Shown here in pieces: positions 48,921 through 58,720 of a stretch of 64,000 nucleotides of DNA. The notes under the pieces are model-generated. The model saw nothing but the letters and a program-made list of their open reading frames with translations. It did no database searches and was not told the origin of the DNA. Positions within the stretch are counted from its first letter, which is position 1. The number at the start of each line of letters is the position of its first letter. The stretch is from Nocardia tengchongensis (GTDB lineage Bacteria > Actinomycetota > Actinomycetes > Mycobacteriales > Mycobacteriaceae), in contig NZ_CP074371.1 in assembly GCF_018362975.1 (NCBI RefSeq), forward strand, positions 7,316,001 through 7,380,000. The letters are read 5' to 3'. The translations under genes were made by a program, and so were the position numbers.

Positions 48921-49451
48921 ATGTCGCTGCGGCACGGGTTGCTGGGATTGCTGGCGGAGGGGCCGGCCAGCGGGTATGACCTGGCGCAGCGGTTCCAGGA
49001 GGCGCTGGGGCCGGTGTGGCCCGCGCGGCATCCGAAGATCTACGCCGAACTCGGACGACTGTCCGAAGCCGGGATGATCGAGATCGACAGCGAGGGCGCG
49101 CGGGGGCGCAAGGCGTATCGGATCACCGAGTCGGGGCTGACCGAGGTGCGGCGGTGGCTGGTCGAGGAGGAGGTCGATCACACGTTGCGAGTGGAGCCGC
49201 TGCTGCGGTCGTTCTTCTCGTGGCTGATGGATCCGGCGGATCTGGACGAGCATCTCGAGCGGGAGGCCAAGTTCTTCGGCGACACCGCGGCCATGTACCG
49301 GGAGCTGGCGCTGGCCAAGGATCGCGGCGAACTGGGCGACGACCCGCACGCCAAGTCCAAGCGGATCACCGTCGAGGCGGGCATCCGGCTCTACGAGGCG
49401 CTGGCCGAGTGGGCGGAGTGGGCGCGCGACGAGATCGGCGAGGATCGGTAA
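48921..49451 (+). CDS. PadR family transcriptional regulator
   Basis: A 176-residue protein with an N-terminal winged helix (SLRHGLLGLLAEGPASGYDLAQRF, then IYAELGRLSEAGMIE) and a C-terminal Vir-like helical dimerisation arm. PadR repressors bind ATGT-N8-ACAT palindromes; exactly such a site sits 55 bases after this gene, in front of the first SDR gene. ATG 48921 has AAAGGG upstream. The likely job is repression of the downstream SDR pair. Confidence 0.9.
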   Translation: MSLRHGLLGLLAEGPASGYDLAQRFQEALGPVWPARHPKIYAELGRLSEAGMIEIDSEGARGRKAYRITESGLTEVRRWLVEEEVDHTLRVEPLLRSFFSWLMDPADLDEHLEREAKFFGDTAAMYRELALAKDRGELGDDPHAKSKRITVEAGIRLYEALAEWAEWARDEIGEDR

Positions 49452-49500
49452 AACACCGGCACCGCATCGGAATTGGAATCGACAGGGGTACTCGCATCCG

Positions 49501-49528
49501 TTGACATGTCCCTTGGGACATGTACTCT
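49501..49528 (+). promoter_or_regulatory. Promoter of the SDR pair
   Basis: Consensus -35 TTGACA (49501-49506), a 16-base spacer, and -10 TACTCT (49523-49528). The spacer is filled by the PadR-type palindrome. One of the best -35 boxes in the window. Confidence 0.7.
49504..49523. promoter_or_regulatory. PadR operator 1
   Basis: Perfect palindrome ACATGTCCC - TT - GGGACATGT containing ATGT-N8-ACAT (49506-49521), the consensus PadR site, lying between the -35 and -10 boxes. Binding would block RNA polymerase. Confidence 0.75.
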
Positions 49529-49532
49529 TGTT

Positions 49533-49550
49533 CATGTACCCGGGTATATG
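49533..49550. promoter_or_regulatory. PadR operator 2, one mismatch
   Basis: CATGTACCC directly followed by GGGTATATG; the arms differ at one base. Contains ATGT-N8-ATAT and lies just downstream of the promoter, so two dimers could bind together. Confidence 0.6.
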
Positions 49551-49582
49551 CGAATCAACCGCGACTCGATCCGAGGCTTCCC

Positions 49583-50446
49583 ATGACAGCACCCACCAAC
49601 GGGCGCGCCATCCTGCTGACCGGCGCGAACGGCGGCATCGGCCGCGCCTGCGCACAGGCCCTGGCCGCCAAGGGATTTCACGTCTACGCCGGTGTCCGCA
49701 CACCGGCGCCCGAGCTCGATGCCACCGGCATCACCCAGATCGTCCTCGATGTCACCGACTCCGGCAGCGTCGCCGCGGCCGCCGACCAGGTGGCGAAACA
49801 CCGCGACGGCCAGGGCCTGCACGCCGTGATCAACAATGCGGGCGTCCTCGTGCAGGGCCCCACCGAACTGGTGCCGATCGACGAATGGCACCGCCAATTC
49901 GAGGTCAATGTGCACGGACCGGTCCGGGTCATCCAGGCGTTCCTGCCGCTGCTGCGCGCCGGCGGCGGCCGGATCGTGAACGTCAGCGCGGGCAGCGCGC
50001 GGGTCGCGTTCCCGTTCCTGGGCCCGATCGGCGCGAGCAAGTCCGCACTGGAGTCGTATTCGGAATCGCTGCGGGTCGAACTGGCCCCGTGGCGCATCCC
50101 GGTGTCGATCGTGCAGCCCGGGGCCATGCGCACCGAGATCTTCGCCAAGTCCACCGCGTCCGCCGAAGCCGCACTGGCGGAGGCGGATCCGCGCACCGTC
50201 GCGCTCTACGAACGCCAGCTCGTCGCCTTCGACACCGCCGCCGCCGGGCAGCGGTACGCCCCGCCCGAGGTGGCGGCGGCAGCCATCGTCCGCGCCGTCG
50301 GGGCGCGCCGGCCGAAGGCGTTCTACACGGCCGGATCCGATGCGCGACTGGCGATCTGGCTCGCACGTATCCCGGCCCGGCTGCGGGACCGCGTCTTCCA
50401 GCGCGCCCTCGGCCTGTCCGGCATCGAACCCGCTCTCGCCCACTGA
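49583..50446 (+). CDS. SDR family NAD(P)-dependent oxidoreductase
   Basis: A classical short-chain dehydrogenase of 287 residues. The cofactor motif is LTGANGGIGRACAQAL (TGxxxGxG, near residue 12), NNAG occurs near residue 88, and the active site has Ser in VSAGSARVAFP. The position that is usually Tyr reads GPIGASKSALES, where Gly-Pro-Ile-Gly replaces the usual Pro-x-x-Tyr; the active-site Lys (ASKSAL) is kept. A loss of the catalytic Tyr would be unusual and needs alignment. Start ATG 49583 with GAGG upstream. First gene of the PadR-controlled unit. Confidence 0.85.
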   Translation: MTAPTNGRAILLTGANGGIGRACAQALAAKGFHVYAGVRTPAPELDATGITQIVLDVTDSGSVAAAADQVAKHRDGQGLHAVINNAGVLVQGPTELVPIDEWHRQFEVNVHGPVRVIQAFLPLLRAGGGRIVNVSAGSARVAFPFLGPIGASKSALESYSESLRVELAPWRIPVSIVQPGAMRTEIFAKSTASAEAALAEADPRTVALYERQLVAFDTAAAGQRYAPPEVAAAAIVRAVGARRPKAFYTAGSDARLAIWLARIPARLRDRVFQRALGLSGIEPALAH

Positions 50447-50462
50447 ATCAGGAAATGAGCAC

Positions 50463-51209
50463 ATGGAACTGGCACTCACCGGGCGGACCGCCCTCATCAC
50501 CGGCGCCTCCGCGGGCATCGGCGCGGAGATCGCGCGGGTACTGGCCGCCGAGGGCTGCCGACTACATCTGGCCGCCCGCGGCAAGGAACGACTCGAGGAA
50601 CTCGCCGAGCGGCTGCGCGCCGTGCACGACGTGGAGGTGCACACCCATCCGGCCGACCTGCGCGTAGCCGCCGATATCGAACGGCTCGCGAATATCGATG
50701 GCCCGCTGGACATTCTGGTCAACAATGCCGGAGACGTGCCCGGCGGTTCGCTCACCGCCGTCGACGAACAGGCGTGGCGGCAGGGCTGGGAACTGAAGGT
50801 GTTCGGCTACATCAACCTGAGCCGCCTCGTCTACGCCCGCATGAAAGACCAGGGCAAGGGCGTGGTGGTGAACGTGATCGGCGCGGCCGGTGAACGACCC
50901 GACGCCGAGTACATCGCGGGCAGTACCGCCAATGCCGCACTGATGGCCTTCACCCGCGCCCTGGGCAGCCGTAGCTGGCGCGACGGGCTGCGCGTGGTCG
51001 GCATCAATCCGGGTCCGGTGGCCACCGCGCGCATCACCGAACTCATCGAGAAGAATGCCCGCTTCGCCGAGATCGCAGCGGACTTCCCCTTCGGCCGTCC
51101 GGCCCATCCACGGGAAATCGCAGATATGGCAGCGTTTCTCGCGTCGGACCGGTCGGGTTACACCACCGGGACCGTCGTCACCATCGACGGCGGTCTCAGC
51201 TTGATCTGA
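50463..51209 (+). CDS. SDR family oxidoreductase with altered YxxxK motif
   Basis: A 248-residue SDR with cofactor motif ITGASAGIGAEIARVL and NNAGDVPGG. The active-site region reads AEYIAGSTANAAL, where the usual YxxxK has Ser in place of Lys. I have seen this variant in other actinobacterial SDRs, so it may define a subgroup. Its catalytic chemistry is uncertain. It follows the first SDR gene by 16 bases and shares its promoter. Ends with VVTIDGGLSLI, typical of the FabG-like group. Confidence 0.85.
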   Translation: MELALTGRTALITGASAGIGAEIARVLAAEGCRLHLAARGKERLEELAERLRAVHDVEVHTHPADLRVAADIERLANIDGPLDILVNNAGDVPGGSLTAVDEQAWRQGWELKVFGYINLSRLVYARMKDQGKGVVVNVIGAAGERPDAEYIAGSTANAALMAFTRALGSRSWRDGLRVVGINPGPVATARITELIEKNARFAEIAADFPFGRPAHPREIADMAAFLASDRSGYTTGTVVTIDGGLSLI

Positions 51210-51212
51210 GGC

Positions 51213-51788
51213 TCAGACGGCCGGCGTCGTCGCCGTGTGCAGGGCGACGAGGTCGGCCATCTGCCGGCCTGCGCGTTCCAGGGGTGCGGTCGACCGGGTG
51301 GCCAGCGACATCACCACCGCGCCCTCGACCGCGGCGATGATGGTGGTCGCCAGCGAGCGGGCAGTCTCGGGATCCACGTGTTCGGCCTCGAGGCGGGTGG
51401 CGAGAATGGTCTCCCATTCCTCGAAGGTCTCCCCCGCCACGTCGGCGGCCTCCGGCGATTCGGCGCGGCCGAGGGCGGCGGCCGTGATCGGGCAACCCGC
51501 GGCGAAATCGCTGGAGACCAGGACTTCGCGCCACAGCGCCGGGAAGGCCGCGATGGCGCTGGCGAGGTCGGTGCCGGAGGTGACGGTGCGCATGAGGGCG
51601 CTGGTGGCCGAGCCGGCGGTGCGGGTGGCCTCGGCGATCAGTTCGGACTTGCCGCCGGGGAAGTTGAGATAGATGGACCGCCGGGAGATGCCGCTGTGCT
51701 CGAGCAGTTGGGCGATGCCGGTTCCGGCGATGCCGTTGCAGCGCATCAGGGCGATGGCGCTGTCGATGAGGCGGTCGCGCGCACCCAT
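51213..51788 (-). CDS. TetR family transcriptional regulator
   Basis: A 191-residue regulator with an N-terminal helix-turn-helix (RDRLIDSAIALMRCNGIAGTGIAQLLEHSGISRRSIYLNFPGGK region; key ISRRSIYLNFPGGK) and a LmrA/YxaF-type C-terminal ligand domain (CPITAAALG). ATG 51788 has AAGGAGG upstream. Divergent from the OYE-F420 fusion gene with two palindromic sites in between, so it most likely represses that gene and itself. Confidence 0.92.
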   Translation of the reverse strand: MGARDRLIDSAIALMRCNGIAGTGIAQLLEHSGISRRSIYLNFPGGKSELIAEATRTAGSATSALMRTVTSGTDLASAIAAFPALWREVLVSSDFAAGCPITAAALGRAESPEAADVAGETFEEWETILATRLEAEHVDPETARSLATTIIAAVEGAVVMSLATRSTAPLERAGRQMADLVALHTATTPAV

Positions 51789-51808: not shown

Positions 51809-51824
51809 TATACCGATCGGTGTA
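51809..51824. promoter_or_regulatory. TetR operator copy 1
   Basis: TATACCGATCGGTGTA, a near-perfect palindrome around ACCGATCGGT, 21 bases from the tetR start. Confidence 0.7.
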
Positions 51825-51837
51825 CTACCGTGACGGA

Positions 51838-51853
51838 TATACCGATTGGTCTA
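51838..51853. promoter_or_regulatory. TetR operator copy 2
   Basis: TATACCGATTGGTCTA, same half-sites as copy 1, start to start 29 bases away. Together they span the divergent promoter region. Confidence 0.7.
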
Positions 51854-51900: not shown

Positions 51901-53619
51901 ATGCCGACGGCAGCCGCTCAGCCCACCCTGCACGATCCCCTGCCGCTGGCCAGCGGACAGGTTCTCCCCAATCGCATTATGAAGTCGGCCCTGAGCGAGG
52001 GTCTGGCGAATGGCGACAATGCCCCCGACGCGCGGCTGGAACGGCTCTACGCACGCTGGAGCCGCGGCGGCTACGGCCTCATCGTCACCGGCAATGTCAT
52101 GGTCGACCGCCGCCACTGCGGCGAACCCGGCAATGTGGCCATGGAGGACGAACGACACCTCCCGGCCCTCACCCGCTGGGCCAAGATCGCCAAGGACGGC
52201 GGCGCGAAGGTCTGGGTGCAGGTGAATCATCCCGGACGGCAAGCCAATCCGATCGTCACCCGCACCCGCGCGGTCGCGCCGTCGGCCATCGCCGTGGGCA
52301 TTCCCGGCATCCCCGCCCCGCGCGCGCTGACCGAGGACGAGATCATCGACATCATCGCCCGCTTCGGCAACGCCGCCCGGGTCGCCGAAGCCGCCGGATT
52401 CGACGGCGTCCAGATCCACGGCGCGCACGGCTATCTGGTGTCGCAGTTCCTGTCCCCGCTGTCCAACCAGCGCACCGACGCCTGGGGCGGCGACGCCGAG
52501 CGCCGCCGGCGCTTCGTGCTCGAGGTGGTCCGCAGCATCCGGGCGGCGGTGCGCCCCGGGTTCGGGGTGGGCATCAAGCTGAACTCCGCCGACTTCCAGC
52601 GCGGCGGTTTCTCCGAGAACGAATCGCGCGCGGTCATCGAACAACTGTCCGCCGAACAGGTGGACCTCATCGAGATCAGCGGCGGCAGTTACGAATCCCC
52701 CGCCATGCTGGACCGACCGCGCACCGTGTCGACCAGCACGCGTGCTCGCGAGGCCTACTTCCTCGACTACGCCGAGACCGCCCGCCAAGCCGCGGGCGCG
52801 ATCCCGATCGCGGTCACCGGCGGGTTCCGCTCCCACTCGGCCATGTCCGCGGCGCTCGCGGACGGCACCTGCGACCTGATCGGCCTGGGCCGGCCGACCG
52901 CCGTGATCCCCAGTGCCGCGGCCAATCTGCTCGGCGAGCGCACCGCCACCCTGCCGACCCCGCACATCACCCTCGGACTGCCGCCGCGCCTGGCCGCCAA
53001 CGGCGGGCTCAAAACCGCCGACGGCGCGCTCGACCTGCAATGGCACACCGACCAGCTGCACCTGCTGGGCGCGGGCAACGACCCCGACCCCGACCGCTCG
53101 CCGTGGCGCACCGCGGTGACCATGCTGCGCCGCAACGGTTTCGACGCCTTCCGCAGCAAGCGCTCCGCCGCGCCCCGCAGTGCCGCCGACCGGGCCGCCC
53201 GCAAGTTCCGCACCGAGCGGGCCGTGGGCCGCTACGTCATGAACCCGACCGTGCGGGCCCTGGGCAAGGTCGGCATCCGCACCGCCTTCGCGAGCGAGAT
53301 CGAGACCGTCGGCCGCAAGTCCGGCGAGCCGCGCCGGGTGCCGGTATCGCTGCTCTTCGACGACCAGGGCGCCTGGGCGATCTGCCAGCACGGCCTGCGC
53401 TCGGGCTGGGGTCTCAACATCTCGGCGAACCCGAATGTCCGTGTCCGCCAGGGTGATCGCTGGCGTACCGGCACCGCGGCCCTGCTCCCGGACGACGATG
53501 TGGTGGCCCGCACCCGCAGCTTCGCCCCGCATCCGGCCCTGGCCCCGTTCGCGCGCGGCGTGTTCGTGGCGCTGGAGAGCGATCCGGTGACGGTGCGGAT
53601 CACGTTCACCGACAACTGA
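51901..53619 (+). CDS. Fusion of an Old Yellow Enzyme domain and an F420-dependent nitroreductase-type domain
   Basis: The 572-residue chain has two parts. Residues about 1-375 are an FMN-binding NADH:flavin oxidoreductase of the Old Yellow Enzyme family, with WVQVNHPGRQAN, IHGAHGYLVSQFLSP, QRTDAWGGDAERRRRF and LIGLGRPTA. After a ~65-residue linker, residues about 445-572 match the deazaflavin (F420)-dependent nitroreductase group to which mycobacterial Ddn belongs: ETVGRKSGEPRRVPVSLLF and LNISANPNVRVR. One chain could thus use both FMN and F420H2 for ene or nitro reduction; this is inference. First in-frame Met is ATG 51901. Probably repressed by the divergent TetR. Confidence 0.85.
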   Translation: MPTAAAQPTLHDPLPLASGQVLPNRIMKSALSEGLANGDNAPDARLERLYARWSRGGYGLIVTGNVMVDRRHCGEPGNVAMEDERHLPALTRWAKIAKDGGAKVWVQVNHPGRQANPIVTRTRAVAPSAIAVGIPGIPAPRALTEDEIIDIIARFGNAARVAEAAGFDGVQIHGAHGYLVSQFLSPLSNQRTDAWGGDAERRRRFVLEVVRSIRAAVRPGFGVGIKLNSADFQRGGFSENESRAVIEQLSAEQVDLIEISGGSYESPAMLDRPRTVSTSTRAREAYFLDYAETARQAAGAIPIAVTGGFRSHSAMSAALADGTCDLIGLGRPTAVIPSAAANLLGERTATLPTPHITLGLPPRLAANGGLKTADGALDLQWHTDQLHLLGAGNDPDPDRSPWRTAVTMLRRNGFDAFRSKRSAAPRSAADRAARKFRTERAVGRYVMNPTVRALGKVGIRTAFASEIETVGRKSGEPRRVPVSLLFDDQGAWAICQHGLRSGWGLNISANPNVRVRQGDRWRTGTAALLPDDDVVARTRSFAPHPALAPFARGVFVALESDPVTVRITFTDN

Positions 53620-53671
53620 TTCCGGCGAGCGACCGGGCGGCCGCACCGAGCCGCCCGGCCACTCGGGCTGG

Positions 53672-54158: not shown

Positions 54159-54164
54159 TAGGTG

Positions 54165-57100
54165 ATGTTGCTCATGCTGCGGATTCACGCGTTCGGTGAG
54201 CTCGAGGTCGACCTGGACAGCGATCCCGTGGCGCTGCCGCGCGGCCATCTGGTCCGGTCCCTGCTGGTGTGGCTGGCCCTGCACCCCGGCCCGCATCCAC
54301 GCGCCCGCCTGTGCGGCCTGTTCTGGCCCGACGCGCCCGACGGCAAGGCCCGCGCCAGCCTGCGCAGCGCGGTGTGGGCCCTGCGGATCGCACTAGGGTC
54401 TGCTGCAGAGTTGCTGTACACCGATCGCGACGTCATCGAACTGCGTCGCGACGAGGTCTGGGTGGACGCCCTCGAATTCGACCGGCTGCGCGCGGCGGGC
54501 CGGCTCGAGCAGGCGGTGACCATCTGCCGGGGCGAGTTGCTCGCCGCCCACGACGAGGACTGGGTGCGGCGTTCCCGCGACGAATACGGCCGGCGGCTGG
54601 GCGTGGCGCTGGCCGGACTGGCCGCGGCGGCCGAATCCGGCGGCGAACTCGCCCCCGCCCTGGACTGGGCGCGCCGGCGGGTCACCGTACGGCCGCTGGA
54701 CGAGGAGGCCGGACGCGAACTGATCCGGCTCTCGGCCGCGGCCGGCGACCGGGCCGCGGCGCTGGCGAGCTTCGACCGCCTGCGCGACACCCTGCGCGCC
54801 GAGCTGGGCATCGATCCGTCCCCATCCACCCTCGCATTGGCGGACAAGCTCTGCCCGCGAACCGACGACGCCCCAACAGCGCCGAGCTCCGGGACACCGG
54901 CATCGGCGGCAGCACCGTCGACCGCGCCTTCGGCGTTGGCGTCGCCCTGGGCCGCGAGACCGCTGTTCGGCCGCAGCGACGAATTGCATCGCCTCCTGGA
55001 CTGCTGGCATCAGGTGCGCGCGGGCACGGGCATGGTGGTGGAGGTGACGGCGGAGGGCGGTCTCGGCAAGACCCAGCTCGTGGAGGAGGTCGTCGACATC
55101 GCGGGCCGGGACGGTGCCCGCACCGCGATCGGCGCGCCGGGCGCGCTCGGCGGCGCACCCTACGAACTGTGGTCCGAACTGCTGGCCGAGGCGCTCGAAC
55201 CGGGAGAGCGGCTGCCGGGCGACACGCTGTGGGCGGACGATCTCGCACGGCTACTGCCCGGTGTCGCAGCTCATTGGGCGGCCTCGTCACCGGTGGCAGC
55301 GACCCCGCAGCACGATCAGATCCGGCTGTTCGAGGCCGTGGTCGAGTTCCTCGGTTTCCTGGCCGCGCGCCGGCCCCTGGTCGTCGTGCTCGAGGATCTG
55401 CACAACGCCGACCCCTCGAGCCTCGAACTGCTGCGTTACGCGGGGCGGCGGCTGTGCCGGATCCCGGTGCTGATCATCCTGACTCGCCGCCCCCTGCCGC
55501 CGCGACCGTCGGTCGACGGCACGCTCGCCGCACTGCGCGCGAGAGGCTCACTGCGCCTGGAACTCTCGTTGCAGCCGTTGTCCCCCACCGCGATTCGGCA
55601 CATCGTCCGGCAGCAGGCGCGGCTGCCGAAATCCGTGGAGGCCCGGATCGTCGCGGCGGTCGACGGCAATCCGCTGCTCGCCACCGAGACCGCGCGGCAC
55701 GTCGCGCACGGGGCGGGCGACCCGGCCGACGGACTGCGCATCGCGACCGGTTCGGCGCTGGCGCGGCTCAGCGGGGCGGGCCGGTTGTTCCTCGAGCTGA
55801 TGGCCGCGGCGGGCCGCGATCTGAGCCGGGCCGAGATCGCCGGGCTGCCGCTGCTGGCCGACCCGGCCGCGGCGGCCACCGAAGCCCTCGGCGGCGGTCT
55901 GCTCCGCGTCCGTGACACCGCCGTCGGCTATCGCCACGAATCGCTGAGACAGGCCGTCTACGACGACATTCCGCCGTTGTCGCGGGCGCGCCTGCACGAT
56001 GCGCTGGCCGCGAACCTGGCCGCGCGGGACACCTCCGGCCGGCGCCGCGCCGCCGAACTGGCCTGGCATCTGCGGCTGGCCGGGCATCACCACCGCGCGG
56101 CCGTCGAATTGCGGCATGCCGCCGCGGCGGCCCGGGAGGTCGCGGCCATGGCCGAGGCCGCCGAATACCTGGGGCAGGCCGTCGAATTGGATCCCGACCC
56201 GGCCGGTCCGCTGCTCGAGCTCGCCGAGGTCGAGGCGTGGCGAGGTCTGCTGGCGGAATCCGATGCCGCGTTCGAGCGGGCCCTGACGCTGATCCCGGCG
56301 GCCGACGCCGACGCACTGCTGGACGCCTGGCTGCGCCGCGGGCGCTGGCTGCGCGGGGGCATCTGCCATCCGCGCGAGGCGCGGCGTTCCTATCAGGCCG
56401 CACTCGATGTCCTGGACCGGGTGCCCGGCGCGGACCCGTGGATCCGGGTCGAGGCCCTGGCCGGCATGGCCTGGGCCGAAGCCGTGGCCGGTGATCCGGA
56501 GCAGGCGGCGGCGCTGCTGCGCGAGGTGGATCCGTTCACCCGCGGCCGCACCCCGCCGGATCTGATCGCCCACGACATCGGTGTGGCGCGCGGCCACGCG
56601 CTGTTGCGCAGTGGGGAATTCGCGTCCGGTTACGGCCCGTTGATCGCGGCGGCCTCGGCGGCCCGGCGGGCGGGGCGCCCGGACATGGCGTATTCGGCGC
56701 TGGCCAGTGCCGCCGGGGCCGCCGCCTGCGCCGGTGACTTCGCGCGGGCCCTGGATTTCGTGGAACGGTGCCTGCCGCTGGTCGCGCCCACCGGCCTGAC
56801 CCGCCTGGCCGTCTACGCCTACACGGGTCAGGCCGCCGTGCTGCGCCGCCTGGGCCGGACCGGCGAGGCCGCCGACGCGCTGCGCCTGGCCGCCGACGCC
56901 GCGAATCGACTCGGGATCACCGCCTTCGAGGGCCTGGTGCACGCCGAAGCGGGGCAGCTCGCCCTGGCGGGCGGCGAGTTCGACACGGCCGCAGCTGAAT
57001 TCCGCGCGGCCCTGGCCGCGGAGGCGCCGATCAGCAGGCCGTTGACCCGGCTGCGGCTGGCCGAGGCCCTGGCCCGCGGCGGGCACGGGGCCGAGGCCGA

Positions 57101-57431
57101 ATCCGAGATCGAGGCGGTCGCGCTGGAACCGGTGTCGGACAGCGATTTCCCCGACACCCTGGTGGCCCGGATGAACCGCGTCCAGGGCCTGCTGGCGGCC
57201 GCCACCGGCGATCATGCCCGCGCGGTCGCCCGGCTGCGGGCCGCGGCCGCGGGCTGGCAACGCCGCACCTCCGCCGCCACGATCGGCCGCCGCTACGCCG
57301 CCAACATCATCGACCTGGGCCGCCCGCCGCTGTCCGGACTGGTCGAGCCCGAGCGCGAATATCAGCTCGTGACAGCCGAATTGGCTGCCCTCACCCACCC
57401 CGCGGGGAGTCCCCATGCCCACCTTCGATGA
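54165..57431 (+). CDS. Large SARP/AfsR-type regulator with ATPase and TPR region
   Basis: A ~1,088-residue protein. The N-terminal ~240 residues are a winged-helix DNA-binding plus bacterial transcriptional activation (BTAD) domain (IHAFGELEVDL, GLFWPDAPDGKARASLRSAVWALR, LDEEAGRELIRL). Residues about 265-560 form an AAA/STAND ATPase with P-loop AEGGLGKTQ (Lys302) and VVVLEDLHNADPSS. The rest is helical repeats of TPR type. Such proteins activate secondary-metabolism or catabolic genes on sensing a ligand. No biosynthetic cluster is beside it; the SRPBCC gene that overlaps its end by 17 bases is the closest candidate target. Confidence 0.87.
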   Translation: MLLMLRIHAFGELEVDLDSDPVALPRGHLVRSLLVWLALHPGPHPRARLCGLFWPDAPDGKARASLRSAVWALRIALGSAAELLYTDRDVIELRRDEVWVDALEFDRLRAAGRLEQAVTICRGELLAAHDEDWVRRSRDEYGRRLGVALAGLAAAAESGGELAPALDWARRRVTVRPLDEEAGRELIRLSAAAGDRAAALASFDRLRDTLRAELGIDPSPSTLALADKLCPRTDDAPTAPSSGTPASAAAPSTAPSALASPWAARPLFGRSDELHRLLDCWHQVRAGTGMVVEVTAEGGLGKTQLVEEVVDIAGRDGARTAIGAPGALGGAPYELWSELLAEALEPGERLPGDTLWADDLARLLPGVAAHWAASSPVAATPQHDQIRLFEAVVEFLGFLAARRPLVVVLEDLHNADPSSLELLRYAGRRLCRIPVLIILTRRPLPPRPSVDGTLAALRARGSLRLELSLQPLSPTAIRHIVRQQARLPKSVEARIVAAVDGNPLLATETARHVAHGAGDPADGLRIATGSALARLSGAGRLFLELMAAAGRDLSRAEIAGLPLLADPAAAATEALGGGLLRVRDTAVGYRHESLRQAVYDDIPPLSRARLHDALAANLAARDTSGRRRAAELAWHLRLAGHHHRAAVELRHAAAAAREVAAMAEAAEYLGQAVELDPDPAGPLLELAEVEAWRGLLAESDAAFERALTLIPAADADALLDAWLRRGRWLRGGICHPREARRSYQAALDVLDRVPGADPWIRVEALAGMAWAEAVAGDPEQAAALLREVDPFTRGRTPPDLIAHDIGVARGHALLRSGEFASGYGPLIAAASAARRAGRPDMAYSALASAAGAAACAGDFARALDFVERCLPLVAPTGLTRLAVYAYTGQAAVLRRLGRTGEAADALRLAADAANRLGITAFEGLVHAEAGQLALAGGEFDTAAAEFRAALAAEAPISRPLTRLRLAEALARGGHGAEAESEIEAVALEPVSDSDFPDTLVARMNRVQGLLAAATGDHARAVARLRAAAAGWQRRTSAATIGRRYAANIIDLGRPPLSGLVEPEREYQLVTAELAALTHPAGSPHAHLR

Positions 57432-57816
57432 CCATGCCCACACCACCGCGTCACCGGCGGCGGTCTGGAAGCTGCTCTACGACCCGACCCGCTTCACCGA
57501 ATGGTGGATCGGCGTCGGCAGTGTCGACGCGAACGCCGACGGCTCGGACTACACCATGTACCCGGACGGCTACCCGGACTTCCCGATGCCGCAGACCCTG
57601 CGCGCAGACGGCAGGCAGGCTCAGGTGACCATTTCCTGCCTGGTATCCGACCTCCGATTCGTCTGGCAACTCATGCTCGGGGAAGACGGGCAGTCCACCG
57701 ATATCCATGTGCACGTGGATATTCCGGAGGCCGAGGCGGCGCGGCTCGACACACAGCGGGAAGTCATTCACCGATCGCTCACCCGGCTGGCCGCGCTCGC
57801 CCGAGTTTCGTTATAG
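57415..57816 (+). CDS. SRPBCC family protein
   Basis: A 133-residue protein of the START/SRPBCC ligand-binding fold (DDHAHTTASPAAVWKLLYDPTRFTEWW), with the usual long C-terminal helix (QREVIHRSLTRLAALARVSL). Ligand unknown. Its ATG lies 17 bases inside the end of the SARP regulator gene, so the two are translationally coupled and probably act together. Confidence 0.85.
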   Translation: MPTFDDHAHTTASPAAVWKLLYDPTRFTEWWIGVGSVDANADGSDYTMYPDGYPDFPMPQTLRADGRQAQVTISCLVSDLRFVWQLMLGEDGQSTDIHVHVDIPEAEAARLDTQREVIHRSLTRLAALARVSL

Positions 57817-57880
57817 GCGTGTTATTTGCATGTGATATGGTTGAAGCGAATTCGAATTTCTTTGTCTACCATCGTGTCTC

Positions 57881-58720
57881 ATGAACGACACCGGCCCGAG
57901 TAGAACCGCGATGATGGCCGCGGCCGCTCGCGCGGCCCATTTGATCGTGGACGACGCACCCCATCTCTTCCACGACACCGTGGCCGAAACCCTGCTGGGT
58001 GAGCGCGCGGCGGAACTCCTGTCCTACCACCGCGATTCCGGCGATCACCCGGTGCTCAGCGGCACCCGATCACAGGTGAGCGTCCGCAGCCACTACACCG
58101 AGGACCGGCTGGCGGCCGGTGATTTCGAGCAGTACGTGATCCTGGGCGCGGGCCTGGACACCTTCGCCTACCGTTCGCCGCTGGCCGAGCGGGTCGCCGT
58201 CTACGAGGTGGACCATCCGGCCACCCAGGACTGGAAGCGGGAGCTGCTGGCGGCGGCCGGATTGGGCACGGCCACCGTCGCGTTCGCCGGCGTCGATTTC
58301 GAAAGCGACGACCTGGTCGCGGCACTGACCGCGCACGGCTTCGACCTGACCCGCCCGGCCCTGGTGAGCTGGCTGGGCGTCACGATGTACCTCACCGAAC
58401 CCGCGATCGCGGCCACCCTGGACACGCTGTCGCGGCTCGCGCCCGGCAGCGAGCTGGTCATGGAATACGCGTTGCTGCCCGAGCTGTACGACGAACCCGG
58501 CCGGGTCTTCGCCCAATTCGCTCGCCTGGCCACCGCCCAGCAGGGCGAGCCGATGCGCAGCTTCTTCTCCCCCGATTCGGTGACGGCGCTGTTGCATCGG
58601 CACGGATTCACCGCGGCCGAGCACATTTCGCAGCGCGAGGCGGTCGACGCCGTCCTCTGGCAGCGCACCGACGGCCTACAGCCGGTCGACTTCTGCCGGA
58701 TGGTGCGGGCTCACAACTGA
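57881..58720 (+). CDS. Class I SAM-dependent methyltransferase (PPM1/LCMT-like group)
   Basis: A 279-residue enzyme of the methyltransferase group common in mycobacteria and nocardiae. Key segments are GTRSQVSVRSHYTED, VILGAGLDTFAYR (SAM-binding motif I, near residue 85), YEVDHPATQDWKR and WLGVTMYLTEPAI. The product class is often unknown; related enzymes methylate polyketides or small acids. ATG 57881 lies in an unusually AT-rich stretch (57817-57880), which probably holds its promoter. The last 10 bases overlap the opposing dehydrogenase gene. Confidence 0.88.
   Translation: MNDTGPSRTAMMAAAARAAHLIVDDAPHLFHDTVAETLLGERAAELLSYHRDSGDHPVLSGTRSQVSVRSHYTEDRLAAGDFEQYVILGAGLDTFAYRSPLAERVAVYEVDHPATQDWKRELLAAAGLGTATVAFAGVDFESDDLVAALTAHGFDLTRPALVSWLGVTMYLTEPAIAATLDTLSRLAPGSELVMEYALLPELYDEPGRVFAQFARLATAQQGEPMRSFFSPDSVTALLHRHGFTAAEHISQREAVDAVLWQRTDGLQPVDFCRMVRAHN

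Follow-up and report, generated by a model that had tools for sequence, protein, structure and literature searches.

A two-domain reductase gene in Nocardia tengchongensis

We analysed a stretch of 64,000 nucleotides from the soil bacterium Nocardia tengchongensis (NZ_CP074371.1, positions 7,316,001 to 7,380,000; hereafter the window), in which a single uninterrupted forward-strand frame at 51901..53619, stop included, encodes a 572-residue protein that joins an Old Yellow Enzyme (OYE) to an F420-dependent reductase-like domain of the FDOR type, next to a divergently transcribed TetR-family regulator gene. The protein comprises an OYE unit (residues 1-422, 51901..53166), a linker that varies in length and sequence (residues 423-434, 53167..53202) and an FDOR-A-like split-barrel domain (residues 435-572, 53203..53616), all on the forward strand. 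In Pfam, PF00724 (Oxidored_FMN) covers residues 11-333 (E = 7.2e-50, 170.6 bits against a cut-off of 27) and PF04075 (F420H2_quin_red) residues 467-533 (E = 3e-13, 50.5 bits against 22), and the NCBIfam model TIGR00026 (deazaflavin-dependent oxidoreductase, nitroreductase family) scores 58.9 bits against 46.35. Both domains are also matched by fold in the predicted structure, as an OYE TIM barrel and an FDOR split barrel with an N-terminal helix at residues 428-456. The model has a predicted local distance difference test score below 50 at residues 419-425, and its predicted template modelling score (pTM) of 0.73, with no inter-domain error given, does not fix the domain arrangement.

A first-pass annotation of the same DNA had proposed an OYE and an F420-dependent domain in one frame; the motifs it quoted are present and all three models score over their cut-offs. 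Its domain order stands, and its boundaries shift a little: the OYE runs to about residue 422, where stand-alone relatives stop, and not to 375, and the FDOR domain occupies about residues 435-572 instead of the last ~125. The annotation had also named two ways of being wrong, a C-terminal part unlike the deazaflavin nitroreductase family and two genes joined by a missed stop. Neither holds, given the match to that family and the closest relatives listed, which have one fused gene. Of the 120 top-scoring homologues listed (8000 candidates scored), 119 contain both Pfam domains, so the arrangement is neither chance nor a missed stop; the one exception, P0034, is marked as a partial entry in its source.

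Selection has acted on both sides of the join. Across 15 pairs of fused genes, the ratio of non-synonymous to synonymous substitution rates (dN/dS) lies between 0.06 and 0.21 in the OYE part and between 0.05 and 0.36 in the FDOR part, and each half is under purifying selection, whereas the linker, at 9-12 codons too short for a firm estimate, ranges from 0.06 to 1.9 (no usable value in two pairs) with an identity of 27-100%. The fusion is real, and a missed stop or an assembly artefact is ruled out by the fused homologues together with purifying selection on either side.

Sequence features of the two halves

The OYE half combines its barrel with the expected His/His/Tyr and the flavin mononucleotide (FMN)-contacting Gln. 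The motif H173-G-A-H176-G-Y178 lies at 52417..52434 on the forward strand, and H173, H176, Y178 and Q107 are invariant in 63 of 63 OYE rows; in class III OYEs such as YqjM, these residues have catalytic and FMN-binding roles. The mycofactocin OYE 2 model TIGR03997 gives 179.2 bits, below its equivalog cut-off of 793.15.

The FDOR half likewise has both its fold and a GRKSGxxR motif. The latter forms part of G471-R-K-S-G475-x-x-R478-x-x-P481 (53311..53343, forward strand), conserved in our alignments and presumably the binding site of the F420 tail or phosphate. Together with W492, H497, G498, W503 and N506, the positions G471, R472, G475, R478 and P481 show no variation among the 32 fused sequences; in a 32-row alignment of the window domain with its stand-alone relatives (A2), G471, G475, R478, P481, W503 and N506, but not R472, are invariant as well.

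Relatedness to canonical FDOR-A proteins is confined to the core. When the domain was compared by profile with seven of the genome's own canonical F420H2_quin_red proteins, the alignment covered 70 columns only (probability 97.5, E = 5.1e-12) and ended short of the tyrosine-bearing C-terminal segment YxxYQxxTxRxIPV, which is found in those canonical members (A3) and is absent from the A2 subgroup; Y445 is the sole tyrosine within residues 435-572. From the short alignment and the lack of this segment, we assign the domain to a separate subgroup of an FDOR-A-like family, not to Ddn. The deazaflavin family named by the first-pass annotation thus holds, but the Ddn type does not, and since the tyrosine segment is missing, 'nitroreductase' activity should not be assumed (for the role of these tyrosines in FDOR-A, see PMC5449967). 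The genome holds 24 matches to F420H2_quin_red, of which the fusion is the only match to this subgroup among the 9 of 36 first-look candidates that were scored.

Distribution, gain and loss of the fusion

Among the matches listed, the carriers include members of Nocardia, Rhodococcus, Rhodococcoides, Gordonia, Williamsia, Tsukamurella, Hoyosella, Antrihabitans, Smaragdicoccus and Sciscionella. The OYE-FDOR architecture is old and widespread in Nocardia, Rhodococcus, Gordonia, Williamsia and their allies, and is not peculiar to the window genome. Within the order, the FDOR domain finds a close match (E <= 1e-20) in 31 of 397 genomes; inspection of the loci of 19 of these revealed 6 fused (G000, which is the window genome, G018, G235, G338, G366 and G326) and 13 FDOR-only.

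An OYE tree of 63 rows (42 fused, 21 unfused) requires 4 changes of label; well-supported branches force 3 of these. An unfused N. brasiliensis-type clade and Nocardioidaceae with G006 (branch support 90/92) lie outside the fused group, and three unfused rows (L047, L051 and L049, the last with a placement that the tree does not settle) are nested inside it, so that the history reads best as one fusion followed by about three losses. A recent or strain-specific fusion is ruled out by the same tree. The FDOR tree (139 columns, 9 label changes) is too poorly resolved to tell, from the FDOR half, when the fusion arose.

Losses have affected either half. By eye, L051 keeps a short FDOR-like stub that resembles the start of the domain and then stops. 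A tblastn search with seven FDOR queries found no split FDOR gene up to 1.5 kb 3' of 25 OYE-only genes (best E = 0.059; for L044 only about 0.5 kb of contig is available downstream), and the stretch downstream of L054 gave a best FDOR match of E = 0.13. Conversely, one genome (G001, locus L165 on G001:C36) has lost the OYE barrel in frame, from about residue 29 to 390, while keeping the start codon, the promoter dyads and the FDOR domain; the product is the 211-residue protein P0123, listed for N. aurantiaca. Outside Nocardia, 14 of 20 FDOR-only genomes are missing an OYE match at E <= 1e-45, and the remaining 6 have an OYE of 45-55% identity elsewhere in the genome. Should the two sites prove independent, such natural losses of either half would still provide a clean comparative system.

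A divergent regulator, operator-like dyads and the gene neighbourhood

On the reverse strand at 51213..51788 lies a TetR-family regulator gene whose C-terminal domain is of the LmrA/YxaF type (PF21993, 99.6 bits against 27; PF00440 TetR_N, 32.3 against 24). A dyad search of the loci found two operator-like dyads of the type TATACCGATCGGTATA between this gene and the fusion, TATACCGATCGGTGTA at 51809..51824 and TATACCGATTGGTCTA at 51838..51853. A homologous divergent TetR gene adjoins 34 of 37 fused loci inspected (at least three genes were fetched twice), 7 of the 13 FDOR-only loci of the order survey (with two more arranged tail to tail) and 6 of 25 OYE-only loci; in a TetR tree with several long branches, fused and FDOR-only loci are interleaved. 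The dyads follow a similar pattern, with a match of at least 12/16 positions in 29 of the 34 fused loci that have the TetR gene and in all 10 FDOR-only loci that were scored, and no such match in 6 OYE-only loci or in 5 fused Rhodococcus loci, where the TetR is more distant. One locus, L151, is not in these counts; a dyad was seen in its genome, G208. By eye, the fused and OYE-only Rhodococcus loci L038, L040, L047 and L057, with their distant divergent TetR, have TATG..CATA-like dyads instead, for example TATGTAATCCAGCATA.

The exact pattern TANACCGATNGGTNTA occurs one to five times per genome in 11 genomes (both strands, palindromes counted twice), and the backwards control gave 0. The only further site in the window genome, at G000:C1:681240-681255 (L216), is a perfect dyad, TAAACCGATCGGTTTA; the neighbouring frame, which belongs to the Major Facilitator Superfamily (MFS; 171.7 bits in Pfam), starts 9 bp away. 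In G001 and G011, similar dyads adjoin frames that Pfam likewise assigns to the MFS, and in G019 one adjoins a frame that looks similar by eye. Except in G322, no TetR gene was found within the short flanking stretches examined at these MFS-side dyads, which may therefore belong to another TetR.

LmrA/YxaF-type TetRs in Bacillus respond to flavonoids such as quercetin; by analogy, an aromatic or quinone-like inducer is plausible for the window regulator.

Further upstream, window positions 48924-51209 encode a PadR regulator as well as two short-chain dehydrogenases; between the end of the second dehydrogenase gene and the convergent TetR gene lie 3 bases. Downstream, 54162-58720 hold a BTAD/AAA transcriptional regulator, a weak polyketide-cyclase-like frame (below cut-off) and a protein of the leucine-carboxyl-methyltransferase family. 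The fusion has no adjoining same-strand partner, and we recognized no pathway cluster among these neighbours (two short-chain dehydrogenases, PadR, TetR, SnoaL-like and BTAD/AAA regulator). A scan for sigma-70 promoters and T-tailed terminators gave none; by eye, a perfect 9-bp G+C-rich inverted repeat between the convergent genes (53633..53658), which the scan did not flag either and which has no T run, marks a possible transcription end.

F420 supply in the window strain

The genome has matches over cut-off to cofE and, twice, to the F420-G6P dehydrogenase family. Its fbiC frame (G000:C1:2637746-2639146; L194:1247-2647) contains an intact CofG half (480.6 bits) in 476 residues, compared with 867-1035 in 7 other genomes tested; the CofH half is absent and a ferredoxin gene directly follows the frame. 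The sole CofH-like gene found (G000:C1:559058-560245; L166:2559-3746) is 2 Mb away and encodes a 46% identical paralogue that does not have the radical-SAM cysteine motif. Of the 9 genomes searched, which include the one that supplied the query, 8 have a CofH of 89-100% identity within a long FbiC-like frame; motif-less paralogues of the same kind were also seen in G001 and G420. As ten CofG-only proteins from other sources (445-459 residues, one 98% identical) lead the homologue list, the missing half is probably not just an assembly slip, though some of these proteins may themselves be fragments.

These observations bear on whether the FDOR domain is catalytic at all, or whether it serves as an F420-independent binding module or, with its long N-terminal helix, in dimerization or membrane association. 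A doubtful F420 supply would suit such a role, as would a canonical match confined to the 70-column core and the missing tyrosine segment. That G471, R472, G475, R478, P481, W503 and N506 never vary among the fused proteins, and that the CofH half persists in the long frame of nearly all genomes searched, argues the opposite, and we regard a non-catalytic domain as improbable.

Proposed function

We favour, with somewhat better than even confidence, an inducible bifunctional reductase of electrophilic alkenes or quinones, whose two active sites, tethered in one chain and controlled by one regulator, would work independently. The OYE domain would bind FMN, accept hydride from NAD(P)H and then reduce activated C=C or related bonds, and the FDOR domain would take F420H2 from the cellular pool and pass its hydride straight to a quinone- or enone-type substrate. 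According to PMC5449967 and PMC8498797, FDORs transfer hydride directly from free-pool F420H2 to quinones, coumarins and enones, OYEs hold an FMN that is first reduced by NAD(P)H, and FDORs are able to give the opposite stereochemistry to OYEs. The two halves would therefore perform similar chemistry with different reductants. Acting independently on a flexible tether, they would give the cell access to both NAD(P)H and F420H2, with the probable gain of two substrate ranges or of opposite facial selectivities on the same class of toxic compound. The TetR would repress at the two promoter-region dyads until it binds an aromatic or quinone-like compound.

We prefer independent sites because the halves occur alone, the tether is variable and residues that distinguish fused from unfused forms are almost absent. 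With our own thresholds for both domains (present in >=90% of fused and <=30% of unfused sequences), we found 0 fused-specific columns in the OYE half and 1 in the FDOR half (P545), in a comparison that omits five FDOR rows (P0123-P0125, P0127 and P0130); some short 'stand-alone' Nocardia FDORs, for example P0125, P0127 and P0130, may in fact be fused frames whose gene calls were cut short. The OYE test is weakened by its 10 unfused rows, 3 of which nest within the fused group of the tree. F420 supply in the window strain is uncertain, since its fbiC is without the CofH half.

The two centres might instead act in turn on one substrate, such as a dienone, a quinone or an unsaturated ring lactone, each reducing one bond, while the tether keeps the intermediate at a higher local concentration. 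The substrate classes of the two families overlap and their stereochemistry differs (PMC8498797 and PMC5449967), and the covalent link has been retained across genera. Against such a sequence of steps stand the survival of each half alone in relatives, a gene with neither same-strand partner nor recognizable pathway cluster, and the near-lack of fusion-specific conserved residues; we consider it unlikely, though worth keeping in mind.

Still less probable, to the point of being doubtful, is an electron supply within the chain, in which F420H2 bound by the FDOR domain would reduce the FMN of the OYE, or the reverse. The potentials (about -340 and about -230 mV) would permit transfer from F420H2 to FMN, and the model, which does not fix the domain arrangement (pTM 0.73), is compatible with it. 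FDORs, however, take F420 from solution and pass hydride directly to the substrate (PMC5449967), both halves are found alone, the linker is variable and modelled with low confidence, and fusion-specific residues are almost lacking. For these reasons the sharing of hydride between two flavins, which the first-pass annotation had suggested, is disfavoured; if true, the relay would be a junction of the deazaflavin and flavin ene-reductase systems within one chain.

The fusion would matter in several ways. To reduce activated double bonds, bacteria have two important kinds of enzyme in OYEs and F420H2-dependent reductases, which differ in cofactor and, in the reviewed literature, are partly opposite in stereochemistry. 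A fusion of both that is evolutionarily stable, and that comes with a regulator gene and operator-like dyads of its own, suggests deployment as one unit. It would represent a ready-made two-cofactor biocatalyst, and its TetR a direct route to the natural substrate class. For many FDOR groups natural substrates are listed as unknown in a review (PMC8498797).

Comparison with known systems

We found no description of an OYE-FDOR fusion in the open-access literature, with subscription papers and papers on F420-oxidoreductase classification outside that scope, in line with the first-pass annotation, which knew of none; the protein thus seems to unite two known families in an undescribed combination. 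The architecture is visible in databases, as NCBI names many fused proteins after their C-terminal domain.

OYE6 (PDB 7fev) and other OYEs of the class III type are without an FDOR domain. Ddn and other FDOR-A reductases (3r5r; MSMEG_2850, 8d4w; MSMEG_2027, 4y9i) are about 22% identical or less to the window domain, which differs from them in being joined behind an OYE, in having QHGxRSGW where their S-x-GG segment stands and in lacking the C-terminal tyrosines. Its closest counterparts are the stand-alone A2 relatives of 132-165 residues, from genera including Mycobacterium, Mycobacteroides, Mycolicibacterium and Nocardia, which are 52-69% identical and share its motifs, but have no OYE attached; in several of their genomes a divergent TetR and a dyad of the kind described above are present as well. 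Multidomain OYEs (2,4-dienoyl-CoA reductase, 2-naphthoyl-CoA reductase, BaiCD and mycofactocin OYEs) likewise place a second redox domain behind an OYE barrel. That second part is an iron-sulfur, flavin adenine dinucleotide and NAD(P)H electron-input module, not an F420 split barrel, and where an NCBIfam model of such a protein hits the fusion, the score is far below its cut-off.
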